Origin: Mesoterricola sediminis
Lineage (GTDB): Bacteria; Acidobacteriota; Holophagae; Holophagales; Holophagaceae
DNA length: 64,000 nucleotides
Direction: 5' to 3'
Assembly: GCF_030295425.1 (NCBI RefSeq)
Contig: NZ_AP027081.1
Coordinates: 4,075,001 to 4,139,000, forward strand
Shown one piece after another: positions 53,614-64,000 of the stretch. The position numbers and the translations under genes were made by a program. Each line of letters begins with the position of its first letter. Positions within the stretch are counted from its first letter, which is position 1. The notes beneath the pieces were generated by a model. The model worked only from the letters and a program-made list of their open reading frames with translations. It had not been told where the DNA came from and made no database searches.

Positions 53614-53722
53614 CTGGTGCGGAACCCATTGCGGGAACTGGACCCCTGGGCTCCGGGAGGCCGGGCGGAAAATGGACTGGGAAGGCCAAGCCCGCCTGGT
53701 TCCCACGTCTCCGGAGTCCCCC

Positions 53723-55747
53723 ATGAAGCCCGCTGTCGTCCTGTTGTGCCTGGCGCCCACCCTGCTGGCCACCAAACCCCCATCGCCCACCGTCCAGTCC
53801 ATCCTCCAGGAGGCCAAAACCCGCCTGGAGGCCTACCAGAAGGCCGTCTACGCCCACCTGTCCGAAGGCAAGCCCATCCAGGCCTTCCCGGATTCCCTGG
53901 AAGCCGACCAGACGGCCTTCCGCGCGCGTCTCGACCAGGAGAAGCGTCCGGAAGCCCGCATGGCCCTCGGGATGGCCGTCTGTGCCTTCAAGGTGATGGA
54001 CGTCAAGAAGCGCGTCCCCCTGGATGCCCGCGACCTGGCCTTCCTGCGGACCATCCCCATGGAATCCCCGCTCTGGATCCTCCTGCCCCATGGGCCTGGC
54101 CTCCTGGCCCAGGACTTCAAGGATGCGGCCCAGGCGGAGGCATTCCTGGCCCGGTTCACCGACCGCACCACGGTGCCGGAGGTCCGGCAAGGCCTCCTCT
54201 TCGGCACCTTCATGACCGCCCACCAGGCCAAGGACACAGCCGCCGCCGCCAAGGCCCTGGCCCGGCTCGAGGAGGAGTTCCCGAAGGCCGAGGTCACCGC
54301 CACGGCCCGGGACTACGCTGCGGTGCGCGTCCAGGTGGGGGCCCCGGCCCCCGCCTTCCGGGTGAGGACCCTGGAGAATCCCGGACTGGAGACCACCCTG
54401 GAGACCTTCAAGGGCCAGTACCTCCTCATCGACTTCTGGGCCACCTGGTGCGGGCCCTGCAAAGCCATGCTCCCCGACCTCCACAAGGTCCATGCGGAAT
54501 ACCGGGATAAGGGGCTGGTGGTGCTGAGCGTGGCCGACGACAAGGGTCCGGAGGTCGTCCAGGCCTTCCGAAGGCAGCCCGGAACCCCCATGCCCTGGCA
54601 CCACGTGGTCAACGTCTACGACCCGAAGACCCGCACCCGCCCCTACGCGATCTCCCACGATTACGGTGTCCACACCCTTCCCACCATGGTCCTCGTGGGT
54701 CCCGACGGCAGGGTTGCAGCGGACCACGACACGCTCCACAAGGATCTGGAGGGCACGCTGGCCCGCTTCCTGGGCCCGGTGGACCATGCCTCCCTCGCGA
54801 AGGAATCGGCGGATGTGCTCGCCGGGATCCAGAAGGCAGCCCAGGCCCATCGCGCCGGGGGCGCCAAGGAACCATTCAAGGTGGATCCGGCGGTCCTGGC
54901 ACCCTTCCGGACCCGCGCCGAAGGCGCCGTGGGCGCGCGCCGGGAGGCGGCGATGCTCCAGGAATTCGTCCTGGCCGCCAACTGCCAGCTCCCCTCCGCC
55001 TTCAAGGACCGGATCCTGAAGGAGATCTCCCCTGCCTCCGAAGCATGGAGGATCGCGCCCGAATTCGCGCCGCACCTCGAGCAGGTCCTGGGCGCTGAGG
55101 CGAAGCCCTATGTGGCCGCCCTTCGCGCCCGAGGGATTCCCGAAGTCCGGGCCGCCTTCCTCGCCCTGGACGCCATGCGCCTCCTGGAGGAGGAGGGCCG
55201 GCCCCAGGACGCCAAGGCCGCCGTCGACCAGGCCCAGGCCCTGGCCCCCGCCTCCCAGCTGGTGAAGATGGTGGCGGCCATGGTGGCCGGCAGCCTCAAG
55301 ACCACCCTCGGCCAGCCCGCCCCGGACTTCCGCGTGCCCGACCTCGAGAACCCCGGCCGCTTCCACACCCTGGCCGACTTCAGGGGACGCTACGTCCTCT
55401 TGGACTTCTGGGGCACCTGGTGCGGCTGGTGCGTGAAGGAACTGCCCACCACCCACGCGGTGTACGCCAAATTCAAGGACAAGGGTCTGGAGATCCTCTC
55501 CGTGGCCAAGGAGGCCAAGGCCGAGACTGTGGCGGCCTTCCGCAGGAAACCCGGATTCCCCATGCCCTGGCGGCACGGTCTGCTTGATGAGCGCCCCGGC
55601 CACAAGGACCCGATGGTGGAAGCCTACGGCGTCACGGGCTACCCCAGCCTCTTCCTCATTGGCCCTGACGGGCGGCTGGTCGCGAAAGGCGCGGCCCTGC
55701 GGGAGGCGGAGCTGGAGAAGACCCTGGCCGGGGCCCTCCGACCCTGA
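53723..55747 (+). CDS. Exported protein with two TlpA-type thioredoxin domains
   Basis: This 674-residue protein has a signal peptide (MKPAVVLLCLAPTLLA). A helical N-terminal region is followed by thioredoxin domain 1 at about 205-355, with FWATWCGPC near 240 and a TLPTMVLVGPDG cis-Pro region. A helical linker comes next, then domain 2 at about 530-670, with FWGTWCGWC near 560 and GYPSLFLIGPDG. Both domains keep their CxxC pairs (CGPC and CGWC), so two redox centres are predicted. GGAG lies 7 nt before ATG 53723. It probably maintains thiols for periplasmic cytochrome maturation or oxidative folding, an inference from the family. Confidence 0.87.
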   Translation: MKPAVVLLCLAPTLLATKPPSPTVQSILQEAKTRLEAYQKAVYAHLSEGKPIQAFPDSLEADQTAFRARLDQEKRPEARMALGMAVCAFKVMDVKKRVPLDARDLAFLRTIPMESPLWILLPHGPGLLAQDFKDAAQAEAFLARFTDRTTVPEVRQGLLFGTFMTAHQAKDTAAAAKALARLEEEFPKAEVTATARDYAAVRVQVGAPAPAFRVRTLENPGLETTLETFKGQYLLIDFWATWCGPCKAMLPDLHKVHAEYRDKGLVVLSVADDKGPEVVQAFRRQPGTPMPWHHVVNVYDPKTRTRPYAISHDYGVHTLPTMVLVGPDGRVAADHDTLHKDLEGTLARFLGPVDHASLAKESADVLAGIQKAAQAHRAGGAKEPFKVDPAVLAPFRTRAEGAVGARREAAMLQEFVLAANCQLPSAFKDRILKEISPASEAWRIAPEFAPHLEQVLGAEAKPYVAALRARGIPEVRAAFLALDAMRLLEEEGRPQDAKAAVDQAQALAPASQLVKMVAAMVAGSLKTTLGQPAPDFRVPDLENPGRFHTLADFRGRYVLLDFWGTWCGWCVKELPTTHAVYAKFKDKGLEILSVAKEAKAETVAAFRRKPGFPMPWRHGLLDERPGHKDPMVEAYGVTGYPSLFLIGPDGRLVAKGAALREAELEKTLAGALRP

Positions 55748-55760
55748 GTCCGTCCCGCCC

Positions 55761-55777
55761 GTATAAGGAGGTTATAC
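55761..55777. promoter_or_regulatory. Inverted repeat upstream of the kinase gene
   Basis: GTATAA (55761-55766) and TTATAC (55772-55777) flank GGAGG. The right arm overlaps a possible -10 box TATACT (55773-55778). This is the only A+T-rich spot between the thioredoxin and kinase genes and may be an operator-promoter. The GGAGG could also be a Shine-Dalgarno, but no start codon follows at a suitable distance. Confidence 0.35.
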
Positions 55778-55820: not shown

Positions 55821-58800
55821 ATGGCTCCCGACCAGCCCGTCCCCGGGAAAGGGGAACCGCCCCGCCCGCCGGAACCGCCCGGTCCCGGTCCCGCTGCGGG
55901 AACCGGCCCCTGGATCACGGACCTCGCCTCCCTCACCCGCACCGGGGAGATCTCGGAGCGCGTCCTCGCCCGGATCCCCTGGGAGCGCATGGGAGGACAG
56001 GCTGGTTCCTGGCTGGACCCGCTCTTCCAGGGCCCGGCGCCCATCGCCGAACTGCAGGGGCTGGGTGAACGCTACGTGAACCTCCAGTTCCTGGGCGAGG
56101 GATCCGCGGGCACGGTCTTCAAGGCCTTTGACACCCTCCTCCAGCGCTGGGTAGCCCTGAAGGCCCTCAAGGAGGGCGCAGGCCATGCACTCACCGAAGC
56201 CCGGGCCCAGGCCCAGGTGGAGCACCCCAACGTGTGCCGGGTCTACGAGGTCGGCCGTGGCTTCATCGTCATGCAGCTCGTGGAGGGCCCCTCCCTCGCG
56301 GACCTGGCCCCCCGCATGGACCTGCGGGCCAAGGTTGCCTGTCTGCGGGACATCGCCCTGGGGGTGCACGCCGCCCACCAGCGGGGCCTCCTCCACCTGG
56401 ACCTCAAGCTGGGGAACATCCTCATTCAGGCCAACGAGGATGGGACCTTCACCCCCCTCCTGAGCGACTTCGGCATGGTGGTGCGCACCTCTGGCGAGCC
56501 GCCGGACGTCTGTCCCCTGGGCACGCCTCCCTACGCGAGCCCCGAGCAGCTCGCGGGGGATCCCGCCCGCATCGGCCCGCCAACGGATGTGTACGCCATC
56601 GGGATGATGGCCTACGTGCTCCTGGGCGGCCGGACACCCTTCGAGGCGCCGGATCTGGAAACCCTCCTGGTGGCCATGGTCCAGGCCGAGCCCTTCCCCC
56701 TGGAGCGGTGCGCGGCGCGCCTCCCGAAGGATCTGGCCCGGCTCGTCCACCAGTGCCTGCGGAAGGACCCCGCCCAGCGCTGCGCCAGCGCCGCGGAACT
56801 GGCCCAGGAATTCGACCGGTTCCTGCGCCACCTCCCCCTCCGCGTCATGGGACGGAGCCTGGTCTACCGGACCCTGCGCTGCGCCCAGCGCAACCGCTTC
56901 ACGACGCGCGCCATCCTCGCTGGCGCCGCGCTCCTCGTCCTGGCGCTGGGAGCGGGCGCCTGGCGGGAGGCCCGCACCGCCCAACGCACCGACTGGGACC
57001 GGCACTTCCAGAAGCGGGTGGAGGAGGCCCGGGTGGGCCTGGAGCGGGCCTACCGCCGCCCGCCCCACGATATCCGCCCGGAACTGGCCCAGGTCCGCGC
57101 CATTGCGGACGAGATCCAGGGCGAGCTGGACCGCGGCGGGCGGTTGGTGGCGGGCCCGGCCCACCTGGCCCTGGGCCAGCTGGCCCTGCTCCGGGAGGCC
57201 CAGGGCCCGGAGGTCGCGGCCCACTTCAAGGCCGCATGGGACGCAGGGTTCCGCACGGAGGGGGCCCGCACCTGGTATGCCTACGCCCTCCTGCGCGCGT
57301 ACCGGGAGGCCCTCGACGCCCTCCACCGTTCGGCGGGCTCGAACACCGCCGCGGGCCAGGAGACCCTGCGTATCCGCTTCCTGGAACCGGCGCGCCAGAT
57401 GCTCCAGGGGCACCGGAACTCTGACCAGACCCGCATGGCGCACCTGGTGGACCAGGTGGAGATGCAGGTCTCCGAAAGGGCGGCGCAGGCTCCCGCCCAG
57501 CCAGAGCGGGCGGTGGAAATGGCCGCCGCCTACCGGCGCCAGATGCCCCAGGATTTGGAGGCCTTGCTCGAGGAGCTGGACGCGCGGGCCTTTGTGGTCC
57601 GCCATGCAATCAGCGACGAGAAGCCCCGCAGGTCGCTGGGCGAACTCCAAGCCCAGTGGAAGCTCTTCCGGGACCTCCTGGATGAGGGCCTCACCAGCGC
57701 GCCGAGCCACCCCGGCCTCCACGCCCGGTTGGCCTATGCCTGCGACCTCGCCCTGGATCTCCCCGGCCTGGACCCCGCCCCCATGAAAACGCTGCGCGTC
57801 CGCGCCCGGGACAGCGTCGAAAAGGGCCTGGCGATCTCTCCGGACGACACCCGCCTGGGCATGCTTCGGATCGGCTGCATGGTGCGGGATATCCTCGAGG
57901 ACGCGGGCCCCGTGGAGCCCCTCCGGGCCGAGATCCGCCGCATCGGGGCCAGGCCGCCGGGGCCCTGGGACGAGGTCCTCCTCGCGGTCTTCCTGTACGG
58001 GCCCCAGGGCGCCTGGCGGGACAAGGACCTGATGCCCCTCGCCCGGGAAGCCTTGGCCTGCCGCCAGGACTGGTCCAGGATCCCCAACGCCCGTCTGTAC
58101 CTCCTCGTCCTCGGGCAGTGCCTTGGGTTCCAGGGCCAGGATCCCGGCCCCATCCTCCGCACGCCCGGGGTGGGGTTCGAGGCGTGGAAGCCGTGGACCC
58201 TGGCCGTCATGGAAGCTGATCACCGGGTCCAGGCAGGCCGGGGCATGGACGTCGACCTGGAGCGCCTCGAGGCGGCCCGCGCCCAGGAATTCGAGAAGGA
58301 ACCCCAGCCCGTCCGGTCGAAGCTCCAGGATGCCCTCCTCCGGGCGCGGGCCCGGGGCTCAAAGGCGGATTGGAACGACCTCGAGCAGGCCTTCCGCGAG
58401 GCGCCGGAACGGGTCAAGGCTCAGGGCCAGGCGGTTGCGGCGGGGGATTCCTGGACCCAGGCCGGCCTCCTCCTGGGCGAGCACGCCCCGGCCGCGGGCC
58501 AGGACCCCGGCGTCTTCCTCTCCCCTCTGGCGGAACTGGCGCGTCCCGACCCTTCCGGCGACCTCATCACGGAACTGCGCGCCCGCATCCTGGCCGGGCA
58601 GGTGGCCCTTGCCTGGGCCCGGGCCGGCCGGGGCAGCGCCCAGAAGGCGCGAGAGGGGATCGCCAACCTGGACGCGGTGCTCGCCCACATGAAGCGGCGG
58701 ATCCCCTTCGCCGACCTGCTCCGCGCCAGCCTCACGGTGCAGGGGCCGGGCCCCGTGGCCGCCCTCAGAGGCGAACTGGGCCTCTGCCTCGCCCGGGAGC

Positions 58801-58937
58801 TGGAGGGCGCCGCCCGGCGCCGGGCTGCCCAGGAATCCATGCGCGACCTCACGCGGGCCCTTCACCTCTGCCCGGACCTGCAGCCCCGCCTGGCCCCCCT
58901 CCTCCGCGAGGCCCGCCGCTTCCAGACCCCAAGGTGA
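55821..58937 (+). CDS. Membrane Ser/Thr protein kinase with helical C-terminal domain
   Basis: This 1038-residue protein has a Pro-rich N-terminus, then a Hanks-type kinase domain at about 85-345. The glycine loop is LGEGSAGTVFKA, the Lys is in WVALKALK, the catalytic loop is HLDLKLGNIL (Leu instead of the Arg of HRD, Leu for Pro), then SDFGMV and an activation segment ending GTPPYASPEQL. A TM helix follows at about 370-390 (AILAGAALLVLALGAGAW). The remaining 640 residues are helical and TPR-like with no catalytic motif. It is likely a membrane-anchored kinase with a periplasmic sensor. The MocR-like gene starts 4 bp downstream. Confidence 0.88.
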   Translation: MAPDQPVPGKGEPPRPPEPPGPGPAAGTGPWITDLASLTRTGEISERVLARIPWERMGGQAGSWLDPLFQGPAPIAELQGLGERYVNLQFLGEGSAGTVFKAFDTLLQRWVALKALKEGAGHALTEARAQAQVEHPNVCRVYEVGRGFIVMQLVEGPSLADLAPRMDLRAKVACLRDIALGVHAAHQRGLLHLDLKLGNILIQANEDGTFTPLLSDFGMVVRTSGEPPDVCPLGTPPYASPEQLAGDPARIGPPTDVYAIGMMAYVLLGGRTPFEAPDLETLLVAMVQAEPFPLERCAARLPKDLARLVHQCLRKDPAQRCASAAELAQEFDRFLRHLPLRVMGRSLVYRTLRCAQRNRFTTRAILAGAALLVLALGAGAWREARTAQRTDWDRHFQKRVEEARVGLERAYRRPPHDIRPELAQVRAIADEIQGELDRGGRLVAGPAHLALGQLALLREAQGPEVAAHFKAAWDAGFRTEGARTWYAYALLRAYREALDALHRSAGSNTAAGQETLRIRFLEPARQMLQGHRNSDQTRMAHLVDQVEMQVSERAAQAPAQPERAVEMAAAYRRQMPQDLEALLEELDARAFVVRHAISDEKPRRSLGELQAQWKLFRDLLDEGLTSAPSHPGLHARLAYACDLALDLPGLDPAPMKTLRVRARDSVEKGLAISPDDTRLGMLRIGCMVRDILEDAGPVEPLRAEIRRIGARPPGPWDEVLLAVFLYGPQGAWRDKDLMPLAREALACRQDWSRIPNARLYLLVLGQCLGFQGQDPGPILRTPGVGFEAWKPWTLAVMEADHRVQAGRGMDVDLERLEAARAQEFEKEPQPVRSKLQDALLRARARGSKADWNDLEQAFREAPERVKAQGQAVAAGDSWTQAGLLLGEHAPAAGQDPGVFLSPLAELARPDPSGDLITELRARILAGQVALAWARAGRGSAQKAREGIANLDAVLAHMKRRIPFADLLRASLTVQGPGPVAALRGELGLCLARELEGAARRRAAQESMRDLTRALHLCPDLQPRLAPLLREARRFQTPR

Positions 58938-58941
58938 CGCC

Positions 58942-60393
58942 ATGCGCCCCCGCGACCTCCTCCTCCAGATCCCCGCAGGCTCCGGCACGCTCTACGCCCG
59001 GGTGGCCGATGCCGTCAGGGCGGCCATCCTCGACGGGCGCCTCGGGCCGGGCACCCTCCTCCCGGGGACCCGGGCCCTGTCGGAAATGCTGGGCGTGAAC
59101 CGGCGCACGGTCGTCATTGGCCTCCAGCGCCTGGAGGCCGAGGGCTGGATCGTCACCGAGCCCTACAAGGGCGCCGTCGTGGCCGACGAACTCCCCTCCG
59201 GCGCCCGCGCCGCCCCCAAGGCCCCCGGCCCCTGCACCCAACTGGGCTTCGACCTGCCCAGCCTGATGCGGCCCGTCTCCACGTCCCAGACCGGGGCCCT
59301 GCTCCTGGCGGACGGTGCCCCCGACCCACGCCTGGCGCCCGGGGAGGCCATCTCCCGCGGTTACCAGCGGGCCATGGCCCGCCATGGGGCCGCCATGCTC
59401 CAGGGCCGCGATCCCTTGGGCGATCCCCTCCTGCGCGAGCAGATCGCCGCCTGGATCTCAGAGCGGCACGGCGTAGCCGTGGACGCGGACCGGATCCTGC
59501 TCACACGGGGCAGCCGCAGCGCCATCTCCCTCCTGGCCCATGCCCTCTTCCAGCAGGGGGAGACCGTCCTCGTGGAGACGCCCGGAAACCGCTCCGCCTG
59601 GGACGTTTTCCAGGCGGGGGCCCAGATGACCATCCAGGGCATCCCGCCCCGGGACGGTGCCCTGGACGTCGAAGGCATCGATCGCCGGTGCCGTGCGGAG
59701 CGCATCCGCCTTCTCTACCTGACGGCGCGCCGCCAGTTCCCCACGGGCGCCACCCTGGCCCAGGACCGGGCCGAGGCCCTTCTGAAGGTGGCGGCGGCCC
59801 ACCGCGTGGCGATCCTGGAGGACGACTACGACGCCGAGATCACGTTCGGCGACCGCCGCGCCGCGCCCCTCCTGGCCCTGGACCGGGAAGGCCTCGTCAT
59901 CCACCTCGGCTCCCTCTCCCGCCTCATCGCGCCGGGCCTCCGCATCGCGTTCCTCGTCGTCCCGGCTCCCCTCGCACCCTTCCTCGCCAACGTCAAACAG
60001 CACCTGGAGGAGCAGGGGGATGCCGCCCTGGAATGGGCCATCGGCGACCTCATCCGGGATGGCGAACTGTCCCGCCACCTCCGGCGCACGCGAAGGATCT
60101 TCGAGCACCGCCGGGACATCCTCGCGGACCTCTTGCGGGTGCGCCTGGGCGGCGATCTGACCTTCGAACTCCCCACCGGGGGCATGGGGCTCTGGCTGAA
60201 GGTCCGGGAGGGCCTCGACGCCGACGCATGGGTCCACGCGGCGCGCGTCCAGGGTCTCCGCCTCAACCCGCCGGCCTGGTTCAGCCTGGACGAGCCCCTC
60301 CCCTGCTTCCGCATGGGTTTCGCCCAGGCCGACGAGGCCGAACTCCGCCTTGCGGTGGACCGTCTGGTGCAGGCGCGCAAGTCCCTGGACTGA
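58942..60393 (+). CDS. MocR/PdxR-type GntR regulator lacking the PLP lysine
   Basis: This is a 483-residue fusion of a GntR winged helix (about 12-85, ARVADAVRAAILDGRLGPG, LSEMLGVNRRTVVIGL) to an aminotransferase-I-like domain (about 120-480). EDDYDAEITFGDRR (about 292-305) and LGSLSRLIAPGLRIAF match the MocR fold, but the Schiff-base Lys of the usual T/S-F-S-K is Arg327. TPSHQ is replaced by TARRQ. So PLP cannot form the usual internal aldimine. The C-terminal Arg region (CFRMGFAQADEAEL) is kept. It starts 4 bp after the kinase gene, and a TlpA-like gene follows after 111 bp. Confidence 0.85.
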   Translation: MRPRDLLLQIPAGSGTLYARVADAVRAAILDGRLGPGTLLPGTRALSEMLGVNRRTVVIGLQRLEAEGWIVTEPYKGAVVADELPSGARAAPKAPGPCTQLGFDLPSLMRPVSTSQTGALLLADGAPDPRLAPGEAISRGYQRAMARHGAAMLQGRDPLGDPLLREQIAAWISERHGVAVDADRILLTRGSRSAISLLAHALFQQGETVLVETPGNRSAWDVFQAGAQMTIQGIPPRDGALDVEGIDRRCRAERIRLLYLTARRQFPTGATLAQDRAEALLKVAAAHRVAILEDDYDAEITFGDRRAAPLLALDREGLVIHLGSLSRLIAPGLRIAFLVVPAPLAPFLANVKQHLEEQGDAALEWAIGDLIRDGELSRHLRRTRRIFEHRRDILADLLRVRLGGDLTFELPTGGMGLWLKVREGLDADAWVHAARVQGLRLNPPAWFSLDEPLPCFRMGFAQADEAELRLAVDRLVQARKSLD

Positions 60394-60504: not shown

Positions 60505-61632
60505 ATGAACCCACGCACCCTGATCCTGCGCCGCCTGGCCCCGGTTCTCGTGGCCCTCGGGGCCGCGCCCGCCTTCAGCCAGGCACCCGCCCTGGGCGTC
60601 GGTGACCCGGCTCCCGCTCTCAAGGTCGCCTGGATCAAGGGAGCCCCCGTCACCGCCTTCGATCCCACCATGACCTACGTGGTGGAATTCTGGGCCACCT
60701 GGTGCGGCCCCTGCCGCGCGGCGATGCCGCACCTCTCGGAACTCGCGCGCAAGCATGCCGGGAAGGCCGTTTTCATCGGCCTCAACGTCTTCGAGAAGAC
60801 CGGCGACAAGCCCTATGCCACAGCCCTCCCGGCCGTGAAGGCCTTCGTGGGCGAGATGGGCGACCAGATGGATTACCGGGTGGCCATGGACGTTGACGGC
60901 ACCCCCTCCGCCCAGGCCTGGATGCTGGCCTCGGGGCAGAACGGCATCCCCGCGACCTTCGTCGTGAACAAGGGGCGAATCGTGTGGATCGGCCACCCCA
61001 AGGACCTGGACGGCGTGCTTGAAGCCGTCCTCAAGGGTACCTGGGACATGGCCGCCGGCGCCCGGAAGTTCAAGGAGGAGGCCGAGAAGTCCCAGAAGAT
61101 GGTGGGCCCCTACATCGCCCTGAACAAGGCAGTGACCGAAGCGGTCGCCGCCCGGGACCTGCCCCGGGCCCTGGACCTGATCGAGAAGGGCAGGGACCAG
61201 GTGGATCCCGCCTTCCGGCAGGCCCTCCTCACCCTCGAGGCCTCTACCCTCTTGAAGTTCGACGCGGGCCGGGCCCTCGCCTTCGCCCGGGCCGAGAGCG
61301 CCAGGGAGCCCGGCGTCGGGCGCGGCCTGGCCCTGGAGATCGCAGAGCGGAAGGGCCTGGTCCCCGAGGCCTACGCCTTCGCCTTGGAGATCCTGGAACC
61401 CTTCCTCGCCGTACCCGGCGTTATGACGCCCGCCATCCACCACCTGATTGCCGCCTGCAAGGCCCACATGAACGACCCCAAGGGGGCCGCAGCCAGCGAA
61501 GGCAAGGCCCTGGAGACCGCCCGGGCCGCCCTTGCCGCAGGCCAGTTCAAGGGTCAGGTCAACCCCTCCCTCCTCGCCGAGTACGAGGCCGCCCTCAAGA
61601 CGTACGAAGCTGCCGCCGCGAGCCGGCCCTAG
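60505..61632 (+). CDS. TlpA-like periplasmic thioredoxin (paralogue)
   Basis: This 375-residue protein has a signal peptide (MNPRTLILRRLAPVLVALGA) and a thioredoxin domain at about 30-190. GVGDPAPALKVAWIKGAPVTA is followed by VVEFWATWCGPCRAAMPHLSELARKH; the CGPC pair is near residue 66. The C-terminal half is helical. AAGGAG lies 6 nt before the ATG. It is closely similar to the next gene and to that at 44911, including the motif AFVGEMGDQMDYRVAMD. It is probably a duplicate acting in periplasmic thiol reduction. Confidence 0.88.
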   Translation: MNPRTLILRRLAPVLVALGAAPAFSQAPALGVGDPAPALKVAWIKGAPVTAFDPTMTYVVEFWATWCGPCRAAMPHLSELARKHAGKAVFIGLNVFEKTGDKPYATALPAVKAFVGEMGDQMDYRVAMDVDGTPSAQAWMLASGQNGIPATFVVNKGRIVWIGHPKDLDGVLEAVLKGTWDMAAGARKFKEEAEKSQKMVGPYIALNKAVTEAVAARDLPRALDLIEKGRDQVDPAFRQALLTLEASTLLKFDAGRALAFARAESAREPGVGRGLALEIAERKGLVPEAYAFALEILEPFLAVPGVMTPAIHHLIAACKAHMNDPKGAAASEGKALETARAALAAGQFKGQVNPSLLAEYEAALKTYEAAAASRP

Positions 61633-61672: not shown

Positions 61673-62818
61673 ATGCGCACCCATATCCGCGAAACCCTCG
61701 CCGCCGCCGTGGGAGGCACCGTCCTCCTGGCGGCCCCCCCCACGGCGCCCATCAAGCCCCTCGCCATCGGGGATCCCGCCCCCGCCCTCACCGTGAAATG
61801 GGTGAAGGGCGGCCCCATCGCCGCATTCAGTCCCGACCGCATGTACGTCGTGGAGTTCTGGGCCACCTGGTGCGCCCCGTGCCGGGTGGCGATGCCCCAC
61901 CTTTCCGAACTGGCCCGCAAGCACCGCGGGCGGATCGACTTCATCGGCGTCAACGTATGGGAATCCGGCTACCTGGACAAGCCCTACGAGGAATTCCTGC
62001 CCAAGGTGAAGGCCTTCGTGGCAGAAATGGGCGACCGGATGGACTACAACGTGGCCATGGACACCCGCACCCTCCACATGACGCGCCAGTGGATGGAGGC
62101 CGCGGGCCAGAAGGGCATCCCCGCCAGCTTCCTCGTCAAGGGCGGAAAGGTCGTGTGGATCGGCAACCCCATGGAACTGGACGAGGTGCTCGCACAGGTG
62201 GAGGCCGGGACCTACGATATGGGCGCCGCCGCCCGGAAGCTGCAGGCTGAAGTCAAGCGCGACCAGGAGCTCTCGCCCCAGATGAAGCTGCATTCGCAGA
62301 TCTCCATGGGCGTCAACAGCGCAGTGGAAGTGGGCAACTACGCCAAGGCCCTGCGGTTGATCGACGAAGGTGGCCCCAAGCTGGGCCCGGAATTCAAGGG
62401 GAGCCTGGACGCCATGCGCCTGCGGGTCTATGTGAGGTCCGACGCCGGACGCTTCCTGGACCTGGGCAAGGCCCTGAAGGCAGCGGACCCGAAGATGGGC
62501 CTCATCGTCGCCGACACCGTCCTCAAGGTGAAGTCGGGGGACCTGGACCCGCGGGTCCTGGAGGCGGCGGTGGAGGAGTACCAGGACGTGCTCGCCAAGG
62601 GCACCTACAGCCCGGGCCTGCCCGACGCCCTCATCCTCAACTGGCTGAGCATCATCTATGACCGGATGGGCCGCGCCGCCGACGCCTTCGCCTCCCAGGA
62701 GAAGGCCCTCGGCCTCGCCCGCAAGGGCCTGGAGGCGGGCGACGGCCACTTCACCAAGGACCTGGTGGAGGGCTACCAGGCCACCCTCGAGGCCTACCGC
62801 AAGAAGCTGCCCAAGTGA
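61673..62818 (+). CDS. TlpA-like periplasmic thioredoxin (paralogue)
   Basis: This 381-residue protein has a short N-terminal signal-like stretch (MRTHIRETLAAAVGGTVLLA) and a thioredoxin domain, with AIGDPAPALTVKWVKGGPIAA and YVVEFWATWCAPCRVAMPHL. Here the redox pair is CAPC instead of CGPC. The domain is followed by a helical tail of about 200 residues (YAKALRLIDEGGPKLGPEFK). ATG 61673 was chosen from the paralogue alignment. It lies 40 bp downstream of its paralogue. Its stop codon is followed at once by the 49-bp dispersed repeat and a run of hairpins. Confidence 0.87.
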   Translation: MRTHIRETLAAAVGGTVLLAAPPTAPIKPLAIGDPAPALTVKWVKGGPIAAFSPDRMYVVEFWATWCAPCRVAMPHLSELARKHRGRIDFIGVNVWESGYLDKPYEEFLPKVKAFVAEMGDRMDYNVAMDTRTLHMTRQWMEAAGQKGIPASFLVKGGKVVWIGNPMELDEVLAQVEAGTYDMGAAARKLQAEVKRDQELSPQMKLHSQISMGVNSAVEVGNYAKALRLIDEGGPKLGPEFKGSLDAMRLRVYVRSDAGRFLDLGKALKAADPKMGLIVADTVLKVKSGDLDPRVLEAAVEEYQDVLAKGTYSPGLPDALILNWLSIIYDRMGRAADAFASQEKALGLARKGLEAGDGHFTKDLVEGYQATLEAYRKKLPK

Positions 62819-63056: not shown

Positions 63057-63104
63057 CTCCTTGAATGTGGCGGTGTTACAGCACCGTACCCCACATTCAA
63101 GGAG
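63057..63104 (+). promoter_or_regulatory. Long hairpin sequestering the recombinase RBS
   Basis: Perfect 14-nt arms (63057-63070 and 63091-63104), with an inner CGGTG/CACCG pair, enclose the leader. The right arm contains AAGGAG of the recombinase ribosome site (63099-63105). Read-through transcripts would fold it and hide the RBS, a device known from several insertion sequences to prevent activation by outside promoters. Confidence 0.7.
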
Positions 63105-63111
63105 GTTCATC

Positions 63112-63951
63112 ATGAGCCACAACCCCGTATTGTCGCGACTCGAGTCCGATCTTAGGATGGCCGGGCGTGCCAAAGGAACCATCCAGCAATATCTGGCCTC
63201 CATCCGGCGGTTCCAGGAGATGGTCGGCAAGTCGGCCGACCGTGCCTCCCAGGCGGAAATCCGCCGCTGGGTGGAGCACCTCCAGGCCCAGCCCATCGGC
63301 CCGGAACGCCTGCTATGCCACTACTCGGCGCTGGCCTTCCTATTCCGGAAAACCCTGGGCCAGCCCGACAAGGTGGCCTTCATCTCCATGCCCAGGAAGG
63401 ATGCCCCGCTGCCCACCATCCTGACCGCGGCCGAGGTGGGCCGGGTGCTCAAGTCCTTCACTGTGGCCAAGTACAGCGTGTTCTTCGCCCTGATCTACGC
63501 CACGGGCCTCCGGATCAGCGAGGCCATCGGCCTGGAGACCCAGGACATCGATGCCCTGCGGGGGGTGATCCACGTCCGACATGCCAAGGGTGGGGGCCAG
63601 CGCCTAGTCATGCTCCGCTCCGTCCTGCTGGATATGCTCCGGGAATATTGGAAGTACGAGCGCCCCACGCCACCCCTGCTGTTCTCAACCCGCTTCGGAC
63701 GTCCCCTCTGCCCGGAGACGGCCCGTCGCGCCCTCCTGTGCGCCTCGGCGGCCTCGGGCATCGGGAAGGTGGTCACGCCCCACATGCTCCGGCACAGCTT
63801 CGCCACCTCCCTCCTGGAGAACCGCACGGACCTGAGGACCATCCAGGTCCTGCTCGGCCACAAGTCCATCAAGTCCACCCAGATCTACACCCAGGTCTCG
63901 GCCAGCCAGATCGCTGCCGTCCGGAGTCCCTTGGAGGACCTGGTCCCGTAG
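63112..63951 (+). CDS. Tyrosine recombinase/integrase
   Basis: This 279-residue XerC/D-like recombinase has an N-terminal SAM-like core-binding domain (about 5-85, LESDLRMAGRAKGTIQQYLA). The catalytic domain (about 100-275) shows the Arg in YATGLRISEAIGL, HxxR in HMLRHSFATSL, His in LLGHKSIKST and the nucleophile Tyr in QIYTQV. The N-terminal sequence resembles recombinases found directly upstream of IS91-type transposases rather than XerC itself. ATG 63112 follows AAGGAGG. It is 3 bp before the next ORF. Confidence 0.9.
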   Translation: MSHNPVLSRLESDLRMAGRAKGTIQQYLASIRRFQEMVGKSADRASQAEIRRWVEHLQAQPIGPERLLCHYSALAFLFRKTLGQPDKVAFISMPRKDAPLPTILTAAEVGRVLKSFTVAKYSVFFALIYATGLRISEAIGLETQDIDALRGVIHVRHAKGGGQRLVMLRSVLLDMLREYWKYERPTPPLLFSTRFGRPLCPETARRALLCASAASGIGKVVTPHMLRHSFATSLLENRTDLRTIQVLLGHKSIKSTQIYTQVSASQIAAVRSPLEDLVP

Positions 63952-63954
63952 GCG

Positions 63955-64000
63955 GTGGCCTACTCCCGACCCCGGTTCGACATTGCGGATATCGTCAGGC
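63955..64000 (+). CDS. Probable IS91-family Y2 transposase, N-terminal fragment
   Basis: Only 15 codons are present before the window edge, starting at GTG. The residues VAYSRPRFDIADIVR match the conserved start of IS91-type transposases, an Arg-Pro then a hydrophobic-Ala-Asp-Ile stretch as I recall it. They follow a recombinase gene by 3 bp, the common arrangement. With so few residues the call rests mostly on context. Confidence 0.5.
   Translation, partial: MAYSRPRFDIADIVR

Follow-up and report, generated by a model that had tools for sequence, protein, structure and literature searches.

A MocR-type regulator without the PLP-binding lysine and its neighbouring Ser/Thr kinase in Mesoterricola sediminis

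How can a MocR-type regulator receive a signal once the lysine that anchors its cofactor has gone? Sensing by GabR and EnuR relies on PLP bound covalently as an aldimine (PMC8739950, PMC6917764), a Schiff-base lysine is ascribed to all MocR-like regulators in PMC2018728, and Asp279 and Lys312 are described as conserved across all MocR clusters in PMC6677901. The window studied here, a stretch of 64,000 nucleotides from the complete genome (4.52 Mb) of Mesoterricola sediminis (nearest named relatives: Holophagaceae bacteria UBA692 and UBA706), encodes a MocR-type protein with arginine at this place, next to a gene for a Ser/Thr kinase (Table 1). A MocR that lacks the lysine is not expected to form the internal aldimine and needs some other input. 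Our searches of open-licence papers turned up neither a natural MocR lacking the lysine nor a MocR–kinase pair.

Table 1. Features of the regulator locus (positions counted from the first nucleotide of the window)
Feature	Position	Strand	Basis
Tandem TlpA/AhpC-TSA thioredoxin-like protein, upstream of kinase	53714..55747	+	
GTATAA-N5-TTATAC perfect inverted repeat before kinase; promoter, possible operator (weak)	55761..55777	+	
Partner Ser/Thr kinase of 1038 aa, with kinase domain (85-325), a single predicted membrane helix around 360 and a helical C-terminal region	55821..58937	+	
MocR-type regulator without PLP lysine (pseudo-MocR), 483 aa	58942..60393	+	ATG start; ORF and Pfam
Ser86, interdomain linker; candidate phosphosite (putative)	59197..59199	+	Ser/Thr in 10/11 SR rows vs 1/22 site-intact
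Ser107, linker / start of aminotransferase domain; leading candidate phosphosite (putative)	59260..59262	+	Ser/Thr in 11/11 SR rows vs 2/22 site-intact
Arg327 codon CGC, at the place of GabR Lys312	59920..59922	+	phmmer alignment, codon reading
TlpA-like thioredoxin, downstream of regulator	60505..61632	+	
Second TlpA-like thioredoxin, start codon uncertain	61676..62818	+	

The regulator carries an N-terminal GntR winged helix-turn-helix (Pfam PF00392, residues 17–80, 53.4 bits against a cut-off of 27, E 2e-14) and a C-terminal Aminotran_1_2 domain (PF00155, residues 157–475, 75.9 bits, E 4.5e-21). Its best NCBIfam match is PdxR (NF052282, E 4e-86), although the score of 289.7 bits lies below the curated cut-off of 320. 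The AlphaFold model retains the whole fold and superposes on PdxR (7pq9) with Z 38.3 and an rmsd of 2.5 over 358 residues, and on GabR (4n0b) with Z 38.1. The protein thus shares with PdxR-type MocRs the combination of a GntR winged helix-turn-helix with a fold-type-I aminotransferase domain, but departs from them in its sub-threshold score, the missing PLP lysine and the kinase partner alongside.

The original prediction placed an arginine where the PLP lysine is expected, and the codon at this position indeed encodes Arg327. Alignment with phmmer paired the SLSR of the regulator with the TFSK of a solved aminotransferase, and in an alignment of 31 rows, which included the window protein and two Arg orthologues, this column holds lysine in at least 90%. 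The hallmark Schiff-base lysine of the MocR/GabR family is thus absent. Reading of the sequence also bore out the predicted change of the nearby TPSHQ motif to TARRQ and the intact EDDYDAE and APGLR motifs. PMC6917764 lists nine contacts of GabR with its ligand, and we compared seven of them with the regulator. This revealed a loss beyond those listed earlier, since the PLP-stacking aromatic residue (GabR Tyr205) is Asn216. The partner of the pyridine nitrogen (GabR Asp279) is retained as Asp294, as are the equivalents of Tyr281, Arg319 and Arg430; GabR Phe250 is retained as Phe266, as judged from its motif. The regulator therefore has the fold and most of the ring and phosphate contacts in common with GabR and EnuR, but is substituted at the Lys312 and Tyr205 positions. 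That such a domain cannot form the normal internal aldimine, as had been proposed, is expected from the chemistry and agrees with the K302H variant of EnuR, which is described as binding no PLP and acting as a constitutive repressor (PMC8739950).

A homologue search of 80 genomes gave matches in 74. We sampled the 124 homologues with flanking sequence that scored best among the matches listed, and left out one fragment of 220 residues, so that the tree comprised 123 rows. The window protein belongs to a clade of 12 rows (hereafter the SR clade), in which the place of the lysine is taken by Arg in 11/12 and by His in L150. The original prediction had asked whether orthologues share the exchange: all 11 SR-type proteins, from seven genomes, have the arginine. 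The clade is under purifying selection, with dN/dS values of 0.30 and 0.31 between the window gene and its two nearest relatives and of 0.22, 0.22 and 0.33 for three other pairs. We found nothing in favour of an isolated mutation, a pseudogene or a sequencing error; the SR values do exceed those of two site-intact pairs (0.10 and 0.08), but with open frames, purifying selection and an arginine common to 11 proteins down to 47% identity, we discard this explanation as next to impossible.

Within the SR clade, the remainder of the pocket varies little. EDDYD, S191, F266, S324, S326, R327 and R457 are invariant in 11/11 SR-clade proteins and the R334 column holds Arg or Lys. The equivalents of Asp279, Tyr281, Arg430 and Arg319 (the last as Arg or Lys) are all retained, which suggests that the pocket may still accept a ligand. 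The retained Asp294, Tyr296, Arg334 and Arg457, joined by Arg327 and the Arg pair 263/264, might make up a remodelled pocket that still serves as a sensor and binds a form of B6 (PMP or a PLP–amino acid adduct) non-covalently, or another anion; the kinase would then be a neighbour with other or additional targets. The conserved residues and the complete fold of the model are in keeping with such a sensor. On the other hand, the equivalent of the stacking Tyr205 is Asn or His throughout the clade, the lysine mutant of EnuR loses PLP and is locked as a repressor, and the kinase neighbourhood described below is left without explanation. We regard a ligand sensor as possible, though unlikely.

Loss of the cofactor site extends well beyond the SR clade. 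The tree places 97 of its 123 rows in a single group specific to Holophagaceae (SH-aLRT 99), and two clades of that group, of 18 and 4 rows, have the whole cofactor site. In the other Holophagaceae clades the site is lost in differing ways: a clade of 15 rows keeps the lysine but has lost Asp279; 27 rows (L211–L227 and relatives) make up a clade with Gln (26) or Pro (1) in place of the lysine; another clade, of 11 rows, has Arg for the lysine with Asp279 gone; and small groups carry Arg, His, Gln or Pro. An AU test on a 48-row subset (LG+G4) rejected monophyly of the 35 site-degraded proteins (p 0.0026), so loss of the cofactor site occurred at least twice, or the site was regained. The observation holds and reaches further than the window alone could show. 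In the 15-row clade (L152, L159, L164, L166, L172 and relatives), Asn, Leu, Val or other residues stand in for Asp279 and a kinase gene mostly overlaps downstream. The 27-row clade also has Gly, Ala or Leu for Asp279 and Cys or Ser for Arg430, with conserved gene order. L245 (4468–5916), a Holophagaceae MocR outside the 97-row group, likewise has Arg for the lysine, a parallel and isolated case. No MocR without the lysine was present outside Holophagaceae in the best-scoring 11 loci (L275, L280–L289) of a search of 247 genomes of the phylum, nor among the 38 non-Holophagaceae loci (L063–L100) of 40 contig-search loci, all of which have lysine in the aligned stretch.

Two site-intact Holophagaceae relatives pass the NF052282 cut-off (369 and 349 bits), and one of them adjoins CMD, GNAT and EamA genes, a neighbourhood that resembles the PLP-metabolism regulons described in PMC5320631. 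Since site-intact relatives score as PdxR and one has regulon-like neighbours, the radiation probably began from a regulator of B6 homeostasis. The same cut-off calls for caution in annotation: L172, which has lost Asp279, still scores above it (347 against 320).

The decayed clades also bear on whether the aminotransferase-fold domain has become a dimerization scaffold and nothing else, leaving a constitutive DNA binder without input and a kinase that acts elsewhere. Gln-clade relatives have lost nearly every PLP contact and yet are maintained (dN/dS 0.08 for one pair), and the constitutive repression by the EnuR lysine mutant fits as well. However, what remains of the pocket is highly conserved among SR-clade proteins, which disfavours a purely passive module, and so does the co-duplication with kinases set out below; we consider this reading improbable for the window protein.

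We next scored a kinase gene as adjacent when it lay within 300 bp of the MocR gene or overlapped it, as judged by tblastn inside the fetched stretches; several loci stop at contig ends (L195, L201, L222 and L243 among them), where a kinase may be missed. A kinase is adjacent in 12/12 loci of the SR clade and in 13/15 of the clade that kept the lysine and lost Asp279. The small groups gave 2/4, 1/1 and 2/2, the 11-row Arg clade 3/11, the Gln/Pro clade 0/27 and the EH clade 0/3. Among site-intact MocRs of the whole set the count is 1/47, the single case being L144 (12157–13623). At that locus (L144 7217–13623), a single kinase gene is flanked on one side by a MocR gene with Lys and on the other by an SR-type MocR gene with Arg; the two MocRs belong to different clades. 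The association of site loss with a kinase neighbour gives a Fisher p of 7.9e-8, but over rows that are related by descent; a tree-corrected sign test with 3–4 independent pairs was not significant. Site loss does not need a kinase, because the largest site-less clade, Gln/Pro with its 27 rows, has none directly adjacent. In that clade a kinase-family gene does occur within 5 kb in 17/20 EQ rows, often ∼2 kb away, in conserved order with other genes between.

The genome of M. sediminis has only 21 kinases, and its SR-clade paralogues adjoin one in 3/3; inspection by eye of the gene lists of 10 other kinase loci with flanks (L318–L327) revealed no MocR-like gene beside the kinase. The 11 partner kinases of the SR clade, that of L150 excluded, group together in one clade (100/99), separate from the 16 further M. 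sediminis kinases in the comparison (of 18 fetched). The kinase and MocR trees have the same inner branching where both are resolved, and the distances of MocR and kinase domain are correlated (r 0.92, 55 pairs, Mantel p 2e-4). On average, the regulators are 56% identical and the kinase domains 60%, but the regions behind the kinase domain 30%. Shared branching, correlated distances and these identities make joint duplication of kinase and regulator the most likely course, with the presumed sensor diverging fastest. This is the pattern expected if a conserved output were to stand behind a diversifying sensor. There are exceptions to the standard arrangement: in L149 the kinase is divergently transcribed relative to the regulator, and the partner in L150 is a different, PD40-bearing kinase. 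The predicted distance of 4 bp between the two genes in the window is correct, the kinase ORF ending at 58937; in L061 and L141 the genes overlap by 14 bp and 4 bp respectively.

The kinase itself matches PF00069 (116.7 bits), with HLDLKLGN at 192 and DFG at 216. Its match to the PASTA Ser/Thr kinases (NF033483) covers the kinase part only and, at 144.2 bits, falls below the cut-off of 450. HLDLK and DFG are present in 11/11 SR-clade partner kinases, and 10/11 have a hydrophobic stretch ∼145–153 residues past the DFG, which, by hydropathy, is predicted to be a membrane helix. The structure model was weak (pLDDT 48) and too poor for a structure search, and the C-terminal part gave no match to PDB sequences at E up to 1.

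The original prediction suggested that the regulator may be a target of this kinase. This suggestion is strengthened by the unbroken adjacency in the SR clade and by the co-duplication of the kinase genes; the phosphorylation itself is something we infer. Two serines are candidate sites (Table 1). Residues 91–103 of the regulator, which belong to the linker, have pLDDT <50 in the model; Ser107 lies beside this stretch and Ser86 in or beside the linker. Ser107 was rejected as a general phosphosite of kinase-linked MocRs, since it is not conserved outside the SR clade.

According to the gene lists, a TlpA-like gene (families F4/F46) is found in 10/12 SR-clade loci and a TonB-type receptor (F13) in 8/12, the families having been identified by Pfam on representatives. 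At the window locus a TonB-type receptor follows ∼5 kb behind the regulator, outside the window and past an IS91-type element, which raises the count to 9/12. A tyrosine recombinase (63061–64000 and beyond; L329 4658–6595) and then, outside the window, an IS91-type Y2 transposase (Zn_Tnp_IS91, Y2_Tnp) sit between the TlpA genes and this outer-membrane receptor. The genome has six strong TlpA paralogues, four of them within ∼10 kb of an SR-clade regulator, and ∼15 loci of the receptor family; every one of the three SR regulators has such a locus within ∼8 kb. The TlpA/receptor pair is not exclusive to kinase loci, because at L328 (4032–9817) TlpA-like and TonB-type receptor genes occur with one gene between them and with no MocR or kinase in the fetched stretch. 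TlpA, the TonB-type receptor and the kinase could form a line from envelope to DNA, a link that is positional. No other exact copy of the inverted repeat before the kinase occurs in the genome, nor any in the 10 other SR loci scanned. Its TATACT end is common to the two nearest relatives; since they share just this half, the repeat may be only a promoter.

Taken together, we hold at about even confidence that the regulator is the dedicated output of a co-duplicated membrane Ser/Thr kinase and has lost its covalent PLP, with phosphorylation as the presumed connection. The dedicated kinase is the best candidate for the replacement input. The regulator would be a pseudo-MocR, a PdxR-like protein whose aminotransferase-fold domain no longer forms the internal aldimine with PLP. 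It would have arisen through a Holophagaceae-specific series of duplications with repeated decay of the cofactor site, and in the SR clade it would have been duplicated jointly with the membrane-anchored kinase. The C-terminal region of the kinase, likely periplasmic, would sense a signal, and the phosphorylation state of the regulator would change in response; the most plausible site would be Ser107 (or else Ser86) of the flexible linker. DNA binding by the regulator dimer would change as a result. The dimer would likely control its own operon as well as the nearby genes for TlpA and the TonB-type receptor.

Elements of such a mechanism have precedents. FadR of Streptococcus suis is reportedly an example of Ser/Thr kinase control of a GntR-family regulator. 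In S. suis, phosphorylation of a GntR regulator by STK at Ser41 is described (PMC10010549). The proposed pair resembles that system in having a Ser/Thr kinase act on a GntR-family DNA-binding protein, with phosphorylation putative in our case, but differs in that the two genes are neighbours that were duplicated together and that the regulator has lost its cofactor site. Two-component systems may be alike in the pairing of a membrane sensor kinase with a DNA-binding output, in duplication of the pair and in the faster divergence of the sensor; unlike them, the window pair has no histidine kinase and no receiver domain but a eukaryotic-like kinase and a MocR fold. By the features tested the regulator is neither a PLP-dependent MocR nor a two-component system, but it may work like the latter.

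The Schiff-base lysine is treated as a mark of MocR regulators, and here a whole lineage is without it; the genomic record suggests what took the place of the ligand input. Quite tentatively, Holophagaceae might have assembled a two-component-like class from unrelated parts: a one-component B6 sensor, its cofactor lost, would have come to serve membrane Ser/Thr kinases that sense outside the cytoplasm as their dedicated receiver, along a trans-envelope line of TonB-type receptor, TlpA thioredoxin, kinase and pseudo-MocR that was duplicated up to three times in one genome. Bacterial Ser/Thr kinases are described as usually pleiotropic (PMC4601284). If the pairs are real, a one-component sensor can turn into a kinase-driven output, and bacterial Ser/Thr kinases can own exclusive, co-duplicated transcription-factor partners and not only pleiotropic targets.
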